Assembly (NCBI GenBank): GCA_947581795.1
Contig: CANPVS010000011.1
Location: 1 to 64,000 of the forward strand
Direction: 5' to 3'
From: an uncultured Oscillospiraceae bacterium
Lineage (GTDB): Bacteria; Bacillota; Clostridia; Oscillospirales; Oscillospiraceae
Length of the DNA: 64,000 nucleotides
Positions within the stretch are counted from its first letter, which is position 1. Each line of letters opens with the position of its first letter. Position numbers and translations under genes: made by a program. The notes below the pieces were generated by a model, which saw only the letters and a list, made by a program, of their open reading frames with translations, did no database searches and was not told the origin of the DNA. This document shows positions 3,324 to 24,370 of this stretch, one piece after another.

Positions 3324-3489
3324 AGCTGGCGCTCCCTTCCTAATCAGGTTCGGATGAATACTTAAATATATTTAAGCACATTTTTCCCAATACTGCAATA
3401 GGGAATTTATGGGAGGGGGAAATAATACAGCGTCCGACAGACGGCGGCGGGGAAAATGGAATATTTTGCCGGATATCGATTTTATGCTA
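3324..3489. other. Intergenic region with a 16-bp perfect palindrome
   Basis: This divergent spacer is conspicuously AT-rich against its surroundings. It holds the palindrome CTTAAATATATTTAAG (3361-3376), about 40 bases upstream of the E2-like start. The palindrome could be an operator and also contains TA-rich -10-like sequence for the minus-strand gene. No gene is seen. Confidence 0.5.
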
Positions 3490-3518
3490 TTGACAAACAG
3501 GGGGCATGCCGATATAAT
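3490..3518 (+). promoter_or_regulatory. Consensus promoter of the pre-pot structured RNA
   Basis: TTGACA (3490-3495), a 17-base spacer and TATAAT (3513-3518) form a perfect vegetative promoter. The expected start is near 3525, almost 400 bases before the first codon of potA. Confidence 0.9.
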
Positions 3519-3524
3519 GATGCA

Positions 3525-3885
3525 GTCTCAATTGGAAGAACGGTAGTTTTTCCGAAGCAAGATGCGACCGCCGTTGCAAAACGGCCAAGGCCACACGGAC
3601 AGCCGGGTCGAATGCCGATCGCCGCGTGAGCGGCTGGCAGCGTGAGCTGCCTTATTGATTGAGTTGGGCCGTCAGGCCCAGGGCTCAAGTTTTATAAGTT
3701 GGTTACTTTATAACCGGTGCCGGGCGGCACACAAACTTGTAAAATGGTCAGTAAGAGTAGGTAAAGTCATCTTTGCTTTCAGAAAACTCTCAAATCCATT
3801 GGGACGGCGCGCCGTATCCCTGTCAGCGGCGGTCGGAACAGCATCGCAAGTGGAATGTGCCTGGGCATATTCCGCTTTTTCTTTT
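3525..3885 (+). ncRNA. Candidate structured RNA (about 360 nt) upstream of the pot operon
   Basis: No credible reading frame fills this stretch, but it is dense with hairpins. They are GCCGTT-GCAA-AACGGC (3570-3585), GCCGC-GTGA-GCGGC (3621-3634), GGCAGC-GTGA-GCTGCC (3636-3651), TGGGCC-GTCA-GGCCCA (3665-3680), GGTTA/TAACC (3701-3715) and GTGCC-GGGC-GGCAC (3717-3730). An enclosing CAAGTTT/AAACTTG helix also links 3686-3692 to 3733-3739, and three loops are GNRA tetraloops. CAGCCG (3600-3605) can instead pair with CGGCTG (3631-3636), dismantling two hairpins. The stretch has its own promoter and intrinsic terminator. It lacks the hallmarks of tmRNA, RNase P, SRP and 6S RNA and of riboswitch cores I can recall. 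It is either an independent ncRNA or a terminating leader controlling potABCD. Confidence 0.6.
3848..3885 (+). terminator. Intrinsic terminator between the structured RNA and potA
   Basis: A 13-bp stem (3848-3860 with 3865-3877, two G-U pairs, loop CTGG) runs into TTTTCTTTTT. It ends about 30 bases before the potA start, so the pot genes need read-through, antitermination or a second promoter. Confidence 0.85.
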
Positions 3886-3915
3886 TGCAAAAAAACGCCG
3901 CCGGAGGGAGCAGAC

Positions 3916-5034
3916 ATGGATAAGATCATCGAGCTGAAGAACATTACCAAGTCCTATGACAGGCAGGTGGTCCTGGACGACATCAGTCTGGACATCTACG
4001 ACAACGAGTTCATCACTCTTCTGGGCCCCTCCGGCTGCGGCAAGACCACGACGCTCCGGCTCATCGGCGGCTTTGAGACCCCCGACAGCGGCGAGATACT
4101 CTTCGGCGGCCAGCGCATCAACGACGTCCCGCCCCACAAGCGCAACGTGAACACCGTGTTCCAGCGGTATGCCCTGTTTCCCCATCTGAACGTGTTTGAG
4201 AACGTGGCTTTCCCCCTGCGGGAGCGGAAAACACCCCGGGAGGAGATAGACCAGCGGGTGGAGGAGATGCTCTCCATGGTGGCATTGAAGGGCTTTGAGC
4301 ACCGCGCCGTCACCAGCCTCTCCGGCGGCCAGCAGCAGCGGGTGGCCATCGCCCGGGCCCTGGTGGGCCGGCCCAAGGTCCTGCTTCTGGACGAGCCTCT
4401 CGCGGCCCTGGACTTAAAGCTCCGCAAGGACATGCAGCAGGAGCTCAAGAACATCCAGAAGGCCACGGGCATCACCTTCATCTTTGTCACCCATGACCAG
4501 GAGGAGGCCCTCAGCATGTCTGACACCGTCGTGGTCATGAGCGAGGGACGCATCCAGCAGATCGGCACCGGCCAGGACGTGTACAACGAGCCGAAAAACG
4601 CCTTTGTGGCGGACTTCATCGGCGAGAGCAACATCGTGGACGGCGTGATGCTCAAGGATAAGCTGGTCAGTTTTTCCGGCCACACCTTTGACTGCGTGGA
4701 CGGGGGCTTTGAGCCCAACGAGCCGGTGGACGTGGTGGTCCGGCCGGAGGACGTGGACATCGTGAGCGTGGACAAGGGGATGCTCCGGGGCGTGGTGACC
4801 TCCGTCACCTTTATGGGCGTGCATTACGAGGTCATCGTGGACATCGGCGGGTTCAAGTGGATGATCCAGACTACCGATTTCGTGGACGTGGACGAGCGCA
4901 TCGGCCTTTACATCGAGCCGGACGCCATCCATATTATGAAAAAGAGCGAGTACTCCGGCCTGTACGGGGATTACGCCTCCTTCTCCAACGAGTTCGACGA
5001 GCTCAGCGACGCGGAAAGCGAGGAGGAAGCATGA
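3916..5034 (+). CDS. potA: Spermidine/putrescine ABC transporter ATP-binding protein
   Basis: This 372-residue ATPase powers polyamine import. Walker [13 protein letters not shown] (about residues 37-48), the Q-loop, signature [10 protein letters not shown], Walker [12 protein letters not shown] and the switch His in VTHDQEEA are all present. A C-terminal TOBE-type regulatory domain follows (about 240-350), with an acidic tail. The start is the ATG at 3916 behind GGAGGGAG; the frame is open upstream but that part lies in the structured RNA. Its stop overlaps the potB start (ATGA), giving a potA-potB-potCD operon. Confidence 0.93.
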
Positions 5035-5918
5035 CGAAGAAAAGGACCCGCTCCTCCCTGGTGACGGGACTGGTGGGCGGCCCCTACGAGCTGTGGGCGC
5101 TGGTGTTCATCCTGGTGCCCCTGGGTTTCGTGGCCTACTACGCCTTCACGGACAACGCCTTCCGCTTCACCACCGACAACATCACCCGGTTCTTCACCGC
5201 TACCTCCTCGGTGACGGGGGCGGACGGCGCGGGGCGCGAGGTGCGCACGTACCTCGTCATCACCTGGCGGAGCCTGAAGCTGGCGGTGATATCCACGGTG
5301 GTGTGCCTGCTGCTGGGGTATCCCCTGGCCTACATCATCTCCCGGGCCTCGCCCCGGGCCCAGAAGACCATGATGACCCTCATCATGATCCCCATGTGGA
5401 TGAACTTTTTGATCCGCACCTACGCCTGGATGACCATTCTCCAGGACACGGGCATCCTCAATAACTTTCTGGCCAAGCTCCATCTCGGCCGGGTGCACAT
5501 CATCGGCACGGAGACGGCGGTGGTCATCGGCATGGTGTACGACTACCTGCCCTATATGATACTGCCGCTGTATTCCATCATGGCGAAGATGGACCCCAAG
5601 CTCTTTGAGGCGGCCCGGGACTTGGGCTGCGCGCCCGCGGGGGTGCTGCGCCGGGTGATCCTGCCGCTCAGTATGCCCGGGGTGGTCAACGGGGTGACCA
5701 TGGTGCTCATCCCCTCTATCAGCACGTTTTACATCTCCCAAAAGCTGGGCGACGGCATGTTCTTTCTGCTGGGCGACGCCATCGAGGGACAGTACACCGC
5801 CAACAACCTCCACTTCGCCGCGGCCATCGCCTTCATATTGATGGTGGCCCTGCTGGCGGCCATGGCGGTCATGCGAAAGCTGACGGACCGCTACACCTAT
5901 GGAGGGCAGGCGAAATGA
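5031..5918 (+). CDS. potB: Spermidine/putrescine ABC transporter permease PotB
   Basis: A 295-residue permease with six hydrophobic segments and the inner-membrane EAA loop ([20 protein letters not shown]) that contacts the ATPase. A large external loop follows the first membrane helix (about residues 40-75). It overlaps potA by four bases and the following potCD gene by four bases, so the three are translationally coupled. Length and motifs match PotB/PotH. Confidence 0.92.
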
Positions 5919-7888
5919 AGAGAGCTTCCAAAGTCTTTACCTTCCTGATGTTCGCGTTTCTGTTCGCGCCGCTGGTGATATTGCTGGTGTTCTCCTTCAA
6001 CGAGGCCAGGAGCCTTTCCGTGTTCTCCGGCTTTTCGCTGAAGTGGTACAAGGAGCTCTTCCGGGACACGGAGACGCTGAAGACCGTGCGCAATACCCTT
6101 GTGCTGGCCGTGTGCGCCGCCGGCGTGTCCACCGTCATGGGCACCGCAGCCGCCGTGGCTATTGATCGCATGCGCTCGAAGTACCTGCGTTCGGCCCTGG
6201 ACATGGTCACCAACATCCCCATGATCAACCCGGACATCATCACGGGCATCTCCATGATGCTCATGTTTGTGTTCGCGAGCCACCTGTTCGGCCTGGCCAA
6301 CAGCCTGAACTTTGTGACTCTCCTCATCGCCCACATCACCTTCTGCCTGCCCTATGTGATACTGCAGGTGCTGCCCCGGCTGCGGCAGATGGACAAGTCC
6401 CTGCCCGAGGCGGCCCTGGACCTGGGCTGCACCCCCTGGGGCGCCTTCTGGAAGGTGGAGCTGCCCGAGATCATGCCCGCGGTGGTCACCGGCATGATCA
6501 TGGCCTTCACTCTGAGCCTGGACGATTTCGTCATCAGCTATTTCACCACGGGCACCGGGTTCCAGACGCTGCCCATCCGCATCTACAACATGACGAAAAA
6601 GACGGTCACGCCGAAGATGTATGCCCTGGCCACCATCATCTTTTTCGTCATCCTGGCCCTGCTCCTTGTCTCCAACCTCACCGACAGCGAGGACAGCCAG
6701 CGCCTCCGTGCCGCCCGGAAGGCCAAGCGGGCCGCGGCTGGCAAGCCCCCCATGGACCCCCGCAAACAGCGGTTCCTCTACGCCGGGGGCGGATGCCTGG
6801 CCCTGGCGGCCCTTGTGGCGGCGCTCATTTTCACCGTTACCGAGACGGACAACAAGCCCCAGGTGCTGAACGTGTACAACTGGGGCGAGTATATCTCCGA
6901 CGGCTCCGAGGGCTCTATGGACGTGGTCAAGGAGTTTGAGAAGTGGTACGAGGAGGAGTACGGCCGGCCGGTGCAGGTCAACTACGAGACCTTTGCCAGC
7001 AATGAGGACATGTACGCGAAGCTGTCCAAGAACGCCATCAGCTACGACGTGATCATCCCCTCCGATTACATGATTGCCCGGATGATCGACGAGGACATGC
7101 TCCTGCCGCTGGACTTCGACAACATCCCCAACTATGAGCACATCGCAAAGGACTTCCACGGCCTTTATTACGACCCCGAGGATATGTACTCCGTGCCCTA
7201 TGCCTACGGCGTGGTGGGCGTCATCTACAACGCCAACGTGGTGGACGAGGCGGACGCCGGGTCCTGGGACCTGATGTGGAACGAGAAGTATGCCGGCAAT
7301 ATCCTTCAGTTCAACAACTCCCGGGACGCCTTCGGCACCGCCATGTATCGGGCGGGCCTGGATGTGAACACCGATGACCGTTCCCAGTGGGAGGCGGCTT
7401 TGCAGGACCTGCTGGCCCAGCGTCCCCTGGTGAAGAGCTACGTCATGGACGAGATATACAACATGATGGAGTCCGGGGAGGGGGCCATCGCCGCCTACTA
7501 TGCCGGCGACTACTTCACCATGCTGGATGCCCAGGCGGAAAACGTGGACCTGCGGTTTTACTACCCCGAGCGGACCAACTTCTACATCGACGCCATGTGC
7601 ATCCCCTCCTGCTGCCAGAACAAGGAGCTGGCGGAGATCTTCATCAACTACATGCTCTCCGCCGAGCCCGCCATCGCCAACGCGGAGTACACCTGGTATG
7701 CCTCGCCCAACGACCTGGTCTACACCGACGAGGGGTACATCGAGGAGATGGGTGAGGAGGCCATGGAGGTGCTCTATCCCGACTGGGGCGATTTCTCCGA
7801 GCAGTACAACGCCTACGCCTACCGGAACCTGGACCCGGACCTGCTGGACTACATCAACTCCCTCTGGGAGACGCTGAAGATCAACTGA
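5915..7888 (+). CDS. potCD: Fused polyamine permease PotC and substrate-binding protein PotD
   Basis: This 657-residue protein joins two normally separate subunits. Residues 1-260 are PotC (six membrane segments, EAA loop EAALDLGCTPWGAFWKVELP). A linker with a further membrane helix (about 287-310) follows, then a PotD-type periplasmic-binding domain (about 318-657) beginning NVYNWGEYISDGS. The extra helix places the binding domain outside, replacing the lipoprotein anchor used by free PotD. A single frame runs through the joint, so the fusion is real in this sequence. PotCD fusions are known in some Firmicutes. A strong terminator follows. Confidence 0.92.
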   Translation: MKRASKVFTFLMFAFLFAPLVILLVFSFNEARSLSVFSGFSLKWYKELFRDTETLKTVRNTLVLAVCAAGVSTVMGTAAAVAIDRMRSKYLRSALDMVTNIPMINPDIITGISMMLMFVFASHLFGLANSLNFVTLLIAHITFCLPYVILQVLPRLRQMDKSLPEAALDLGCTPWGAFWKVELPEIMPAVVTGMIMAFTLSLDDFVISYFTTGTGFQTLPIRIYNMTKKTVTPKMYALATIIFFVILALLLVSNLTDSEDSQRLRAARKAKRAAAGKPPMDPRKQRFLYAGGGCLALAALVAALIFTVTETDNKPQVLNVYNWGEYISDGSEGSMDVVKEFEKWYEEEYGRPVQVNYETFASNEDMYAKLSKNAISYDVIIPSDYMIARMIDEDMLLPLDFDNIPNYEHIAKDFHGLYYDPEDMYSVPYAYGVVGVIYNANVVDEADAGSWDLMWNEKYAGNILQFNNSRDAFGTAMYRAGLDVNTDDRSQWEAALQDLLAQRPLVKSYVMDEIYNMMESGEGAIAAYYAGDYFTMLDAQAENVDLRFYYPERTNFYIDAMCIPSCCQNKELAEIFINYMLSAEPAIANAEYTWYASPNDLVYTDEGYIEEMGEEAMEVLYPDWGDFSEQYNAYAYRNLDPDLLDYINSLWETLKIN

Positions 7889-24296: not shown

Positions 24297-24370
24297 TGGC
24301 AGCGGGAGAAGGATTCGAACCCTCACATACGGAGTCAGAGTCCGCTGTGCTACCTTTACACAATCCCGCT
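24297..24370 (-). tRNA. tRNA-Gln (anticodon CTG)
   Basis: On the minus strand a 74-nt cloverleaf is seen. The acceptor AGCGGGA pairs with TCCCGCT, the anticodon stem GCGGA/TCCGT carries loop CTCTGAC giving CTG, the T-arm is GGTTCGAATCC, the discriminator base is G and CCA is encoded. Confidence 0.95.

Follow-up and report, generated by a model that had tools for sequence, protein, structure and literature searches.

The window, i.e., the whole 64,000-nt stretch of Oscillospiraceae DNA analysed here, carries on its forward strand a polyamine importer operon behind a long 5' leader. The first gene is potA (3916..5034), which encodes the 372-aa ATPase of a spermidine/putrescine ABC transporter (equivalog NF043075, 569.3 bits, above cut-off). 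It is followed by a gene for a potB-like permease (5031..5918; best PotB model NF007044, 185.1 bits, below the cut-off of 348) and by one for a 657-aa PotC-PotD fusion (5915..7888), in which residues 4-257 match NF007047 and residues 297-599 match NF007048, both below the respective cut-offs. That is, the permease PotC and the substrate-binding PotD are fused in the window; some relatives encode them as separate genes. The potA frame stays open far upstream, across terminator and leader, with a TTG at 3655. The start at 3916, preceded by GGAGGGAGC, is the likelier of the two. Two tRNA genes (2337-2409 and 24300-24370) are found on the minus strand of the window.

Upstream of the leader lies a sigma-A type promoter, TTGACA-17-TATAAT (3490..3518, forward strand), which an earlier note on this DNA had pointed out and which matches the consensus in 12/12 positions. 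Judged from the promoter position, transcription probably starts near 3524. Promoter-like sites were also identified 5' of 158/188 relatives, compared with 48/188 after mononucleotide shuffling. The MFE of positions 3524-3885 is -156.8 kcal/mol vs. -119.2 +/- 5.6 kcal/mol for 100 dinucleotide shuffles (z -6.7; 0/100 as good). An intrinsic terminator (3848..3886, forward strand), composed of a stem at 3848-3877 and a T-rich tail, ends 29 nt 5' of the potA ATG. The structured region of about 360 nt described in the earlier note is thus borne out by fold energy, several hairpins and a conservation in other species far above chance, and so is its intrinsic terminator some 30 bases before potA. Its three GNRA loops reduce to two when reading the sequence, both of them GUGA (in the hairpins at 3621-3634 and 3636-3651). 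Two further loops, GUCA (within 3659-3688) and GGUA (within 3534-3553), deviate from the GNRA pattern. The GGUA loop closes a 5' hairpin of the MFE fold, P0 (GGAAGAAC-GGUA-GUUUUUCC; 3534..3553, forward strand), and similar hairpins were seen by eye in relatives.

A search of positions 3400-3960 against Rfam 15 with E values up to 1 returned a single family, namely RF02440 (SpF59_sRNA, 'ldcC RNA'), which matches positions 3565-3618 with 69.7 bits (gathering cut-off 37.2) over the full model (1-54/54). Respective matches to raiA, T-box, SAM-I or any other Rfam family were absent from this region, such that the raiA RNA considered possible by the earlier note is dropped. The note had recognized no riboswitch core and missed the RF02440 entry. 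Its term 'undescribed' is only partly right, since this 54-nt piece is an Rfam family and pneumococcal F59/srn235 appears on published sRNA lists. Rfam types RF02440 as 'Gene; sRNA' and not as cis-regulatory; for the label 'ldcC RNA' we did not find the origin in the literature searched. Matches of the family occur in 69/295 genomes of the same order (66 above cut-off), in 18/398 genomes of the phylum and in 1/14 control genomes (Lactococcus lactis).

The pneumococcal RNA behind the family name has the synonyms F59, srn235, SN20 and Spd_sr49. In the available text of its description, F59 is an 82-nt RNA between SP0915 and SP0916, and srn235 and SN20 mutants show a lung fitness of 0.05 in Tn-seq (PMC3395615). 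Within the part available of another list, srn235/F59 is entry M7 (869478-869804) with 327 nt (PMC12323649). Given this length, a long leader is plausible in pneumococcus as well, as far as the listed coordinates tell.

Among aligned loci, conservation reaches far past the 54 nt of RF02440. We modelled the whole conserved element with a covariance model, R1 (213 positions, 47 pairs), built from 44 loci, to which the window does not belong, and without gene information. R1 matches 239 nt of the window (3553..3791, forward strand) with 144.4 bits (E 4.1e-38); the window's next-best match has an E value of 0.56. Matches were found in 25/398 genomes of the phylum and 16/61 of the family, always one per genome. 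Searching named genomes with a pattern drawn from the most conserved part gave at least 119 stretches. The matches listed include Oscillospiraceae, Lachnospiraceae, Acetobacterium, Paenibacillus, Bacillus, Aquibacillus and Faecalibacterium; neither an exact pattern search of viral contigs nor a blastn search of plasmids gave a match. We used 199/203 oriented loci, leaving out three in which the core was not found and one at a contig end. Five pairs of loci have identical cores.

In 33/203 loci, several of them cut by a contig end, the 3' core comes without an RF02440 anchor. R1 matches 20/20 of such loci that were tested with it (79-142 bits). When 18 of these 20, chosen for missing the RF02440 domain, were given to Rfam, none matched RF02440; their R1 scores range from 112 to 142 bits. 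That is, RF02440 models an optional accessory domain (3565..3618 in the window, forward strand), since short forms without it are still recognized by R1, and the Rfam model leaves out the core and the expression platform as well as the variety of associated polyamine genes. In examples of short forms, P4 follows almost directly 3' of P1, and three of the loci keep other or degenerate sequence in between. Two loci show minimal forms reduced to P1 and the 3' core, in which the promoter nearly abuts P1; these are useful for defining the smallest working domain. As further variants, the P8 hairpin and its flank look partly duplicated in tandem in two loci, and four Bacillaceae loci have a shorter accessory-domain loop, e.g., GGCAGCGGUUCGCC, in which the CGG of the pseudoknot is kept.

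The proposed structure comprises 11 helices with 56 pairs, all given here for the forward strand. P1 (5' strand 3555..3564, partner 3768-3778) shows changes on both sides in 5/5 modelled pairs. The accessory domain consists of P2 (3565-3569/3606-3610) and the hairpin P3 (3570-3585), both with covariation, of P3b (3589-3591/3602-3604), with nominal support in a segment-wise alignment, and of the pseudoknot PK1 (3596-3601/3613-3617), which is paired in 97.0% of the cells with 0 double changes. The GUGA-loop hairpin at 3621..3634 was identified by reading the sequence; it lies outside the family consensus, within an insertion of the R1 alignment. It is followed by the hairpin P4 (3636..3651; GGCAGC-GUGA-GCUGCC), where 6/6 pairs change on both sides. 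P5, with the 5' strand UUAUUGA (3652..3658) and its partner at 3748-3754, is nearly invariant (98.9% of the cells paired, 0 double changes). The hairpin P6 (3659..3688; UUGAG/CUCAA) changes on both sides in 4/5 pairs and carries in the window an extra GGGCC/GGCCC extension. P7 (3694-3700/3734-3740; 97.0% paired, 0 double changes) encloses both P8 (3701-3715; 96.7% paired, double changes in 4/4 modelled pairs) and P9 (about 3717-3730), for which the segment folds below the shuffled mean in 142/149 distinct sequences. The most conserved part is the 3' core (3735..3791), which also hosts the pseudoknot P10 (GAGU/ACUC; 3755-3758/3786-3789) with 99.0% paired cells and double changes in 2/4 pairs.

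P7 is the long-range helix of the earlier note. The helix is real and its 5' strand had been misplaced, i.e., in relatives AUAAGUU (3694-3700) pairs with AACUUGU (3734-3740). The note's competing CAGCCG/CGGCTG pairing turned out not to be a feature of the family, with CGGCTG (3631-3636) overlapping a hairpin that is missing from the family consensus. Two helix candidates of our own were discarded. A pseudoknot PK2 between the P8 loop and AAAGU pairs in many cells, yet shows 0 double changes, and a 5' extension of P1 (AGAGUC/GACUCU) is unsupported, its 3' strand being a better fit for the GAGU of the core (P10).

To the alignment of 100 chosen loci, all of which matched R1, the caveat applies that it leans towards R1's own structure. 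Here, the 56 pairs are formed in 96.6% of the cells. Changes on both sides are observed for 31 pairs in 8/11 helices, compared with 13.5 pairs after shuffling, and the covariation score is 0.215 vs. 0.096 (shuffled) and at most 0.066 (slid versions). We also evaluated a segment-wise alignment against a tree-based null, using 145 of 164 long forms that were divisible into segments. Nominal support (uncorrected p < 0.05) was found for pairs in P2, P3, P3b, P4, P6, P8 and P10 and for one pair in P1. Under a stricter test of all pairs, just 4 reach E <= 0.3, and each of these lies in P2 or P3. P5, P7 and PK1 are hardly tested by covariation because they are nearly invariant. Taken together, the element is a conserved structured 5'-leader domain backed by covariation.

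The loci had been selected by RNA sequence and not by gene. A downstream gene was readable for 192/199 loci, given that 5 ended too early and 2 had no ORF. In 191/192 loci, this first gene belongs to a polyamine cluster: speD (72), an Orn/Lys/Arg decarboxylase (60), carboxynorspermidine dehydrogenase (30) or potA (29), with 1 other. The groups are BLAST clusters, checked with NCBIfam for the window's potA and one representative of each other group. speD and potA score above their cut-offs, the dehydrogenase reaches 421.8 bits (below the cut-off of 800), and the decarboxylase representative shows only a weak family resemblance (best 58 bits). The exception lies upstream of a peptidase-like gene; this copy has a terminator of its own and a 3' core that has diverged, and decay or re-purposing is the reading we offer for it. 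Similar numbers are obtained for the R1 matches, many of whose genomes overlap the 192 loci and which include the window's genome in both samples. A polyamine gene follows in 25/25 cases of the phylum sample (speD 10, decarboxylase 7, dehydrogenase 7, potA 1) and in 15/16 of the family sample (speD 8, potA 6, decarboxylase 1), where the copy before the peptidase-like gene is again the exception. Seven of the phylum matches are new with R1, i.e., missed by RF02440, and lie upstream of speD or decarboxylase. For 104 loci with enough sequence, the operons read speD-decarboxylase-speE-agmatinase, decarboxylase-speE-agmatinase, dehydrogenase with a second gene, or potA with further pot genes. Here, speE, agmatinase and the partner of the dehydrogenase bear names that we presume from their sequences.

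A terminator-like hairpin within 330 nt 3' of the core was found for 187/193 loci vs. 42/193 after mononucleotide shuffling. Its 5' arm often resembles GCAAGUgAUGUGC and is complementary to the 3' strand of P9/P7. We compared the pairing energy of each locus' own arm and partner with permuted combinations, using 95 deduplicated of 185 loci. Own combinations average -13.6 kcal/mol, permuted ones -10.9 kcal/mol (z -10.8, 0/10000), and the variable part alone still gives z -5.8. As controls, the 3' arm (z -2.5), the reversed arm (z -3.5) and the upstream region (z -0.3) were used, the first two of which are themselves shifted. The own arm beats the median partner in 73% of the loci and is within the best 10% in only 32%. 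Given the fit of own strands, an antiterminator is implied. In the window, its 5' strand would be the 3' strands of P9 and P7 (GGCAC..ACUUGU, 3726..3740) and its 3' strand the terminator's 5' arm (GCAAGU..GUGCC, 3846..3861; both on the forward strand), with a predicted duplex energy of -15.2 kcal/mol. Forcing the whole window RNA into this state makes it 21 kcal/mol less stable, and P7 already forms in the predicted folds of truncated transcripts. Equilibrium folding therefore predicts termination by default. Since the energies disfavour the antiterminator in the window, co-transcriptional timing or effects of a ligand must be assumed.

We also studied which polyamine routes are present in the carrier genomes. 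In the six genomes of the family sample with the RNA before potA, three of which are 69-85% complete, neither AdoMet decarboxylase (speD; 0/6) nor carboxynorspermidine dehydrogenase (0/6) was found. None of the six has a strong speE: 4/6 are without any spermidine-synthase match and 2/6 show weak speE-family matches of 40-44 bits, i.e., above the Pfam cut-off, where true relatives reach 217 bits. A match to Orn/Lys/Arg decarboxylase is present in 5/6 (17-116 bits, 4 above cut-off), such that putrescine or cadaverine may be made there. Two genomes with the RNA before speD have, beside speD, a strong speE. Four genomes with the RNA before the dehydrogenase encode speD elsewhere without a second RNA match, and the link to spermidine supply is thus imperfect. 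What all these cases have in common is polyamine supply; the signal is most likely spermidine, and putrescine or cadaverine may also qualify.

With its conservation, covariation in 8/11 helices, gene association, terminator and family-wide antiterminator signal, we consider the element a real, widespread cis-regulatory RNA. The best explanation, to which we assign a probability of about 0.64, is a polyamine switch that acts in cis and turns expression off by terminating transcription, with spermidine as the probable ligand. The ligand, its direct binding and the direction of the response are what we infer; the OFF direction is favoured because supply genes stand behind the terminator. Transcription would begin near 3524, and the nascent RNA would fold into P1-P10, a multi-branched pseudoknotted domain supported by conservation and covariation. 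When polyamine is plentiful, it (most likely spermidine) may bind and stabilise this domain. The P9/P7 3' strand (3726-3740) would then be held paired inside the ligand-bound domain, such that the terminator (3848-3886) could form and transcription halt before potA. When polyamine is scarce, 3726-3740 would pair with 3846-3861 instead, a pairing supported by the family at a presumed timing, and the importer operon would be transcribed. Most relatives would use this switch in front of genes for spermidine synthesis instead. This agrees with one of two options of the earlier note, a terminating, perhaps polyamine-responsive leader, which is strongly supported by the gene association and the terminator/antiterminator analysis; we do not favour its other option, an ncRNA standing on its own.

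The same cis leader could respond to a different effector, i.e., a protein or a small molecule that is not an end product (S-adenosylmethionine, decarboxylated SAM, methylthioadenosine, arginine or agmatine). speD and speE do work with SAM derivatives, and an agmatinase-like gene is frequent in the decarboxylase operons. On the other hand, the polyamine is common to the importer and both synthesis routes, and the products of the SpeD/SpeE route would be a poor signal in the six potA-associated genomes, which are without speD and strong speE. A core this large and invariant would suit an aptamer, yet it may also be a protein site. Overall, we regard such an effector as unlikely.

A role as trans-acting small RNA, with the terminated leader as the functional product, appears quite improbable despite the 'Gene; sRNA' type of RF02440, the place of F59/srn235 on pneumococcal sRNA lists and the lung defect of the srn235 and SN20 mutants. 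Against it, the RNA keeps to one position in nearly all loci, in front of a polyamine gene of one of four kinds. SP0916 presumably encodes a polyamine-type decarboxylase, in which case the defect seen by Tn-seq could be polar. The last candidate, an attenuator with a leader peptide, was rejected as very improbable. Most relatives have a CUUGUG whose GUG could start the peptide V-K-x-S-I-R-V-V-K-V; of 199 loci, 91 give VKRSIRVVKV, 29 give VKWSIRVVKV and 15 give VKQSIRVVKV. However, the start codon is missing in 17/199 loci including the window (CUUGUA), the frame is shifted in 6 loci (VKRSIKSSKS), and the ORF ends are not conserved, i.e., lengths scatter over 14 aa (39 loci), 17 aa (20), 13 aa (16), 10 aa (14) and at least 60 aa (13). 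No Shine-Dalgarno sequence was noticed by eye. Near invariance of the RNA at this site explains the frame.

Polyamines bind RNA generally, and the existence of natural riboswitches for them was long in doubt. The potC RNA motif is, we presume, associated with the polyamine transporter gene potC. In the text available to us, it is listed as marine only (RF01751; Weinberg et al. 2010, PMC2864571), and it gave no Rfam match within 3400-3960 of the window. The available part of Salvail et al. 2023 (PMC10853860) describes a SAM-I variant as a spermidine riboswitch, a rare class of 13 examples with a narrow distribution. It controls ldcC, speE and speB and is an OFF switch, i.e., spermidine leads to transcription termination. 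Polyamine genes downstream and a terminator platform are common to this riboswitch and the RNA studied here. In contrast to its four-stem SAM-I architecture, the present RNA matches no SAM family at E up to 1 and is thus not a member of that variant; stretches from named genomes that carry it number at least 119, compared with the 13 examples. The same text states that further polyamine riboswitch classes surely remain undiscovered. For the spermidine importer operon of Borrelia burgdorferi, the accessible text reports less full-length potA/B mRNA and more of the short 5' RNAs in response to spermidine (PMC10319736). This potB 5' RNA, likened to ours by description only, has its 3' end inside the potB ORF. 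Two candidate RNA motifs at polyamine-related genes, odc1 (labelled a uORF element) and potE (labelled a weak riboswitch candidate), are likewise set beside the present RNA by their descriptions in the excerpted text (PMC8632094). Within the openly licensed literature searched (CC0, CC BY, CC BY-SA), we found no description of the leader as a polyamine switch.

A wider reading goes further and is tentative, at slightly less than even odds: the element would represent a large pseudoknotted class of spermidine riboswitches, unrelated to the SAM-I variant and widespread in Bacillota, that guards three supply routes (SpeD/SpeE, carboxynorspermidine-type synthesis and import), and the database piece would be its optional domain labelled as sRNA. 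The element is a common polyamine-switch candidate whose gene logic is clear, whose core is defined and whose expression platform can be tested. If this holds true, a family filed as sRNA, including a pneumococcal member with a strong lung Tn-seq defect in the available text of PMC3395615, would be reassigned to the cis control of polyamine supply.
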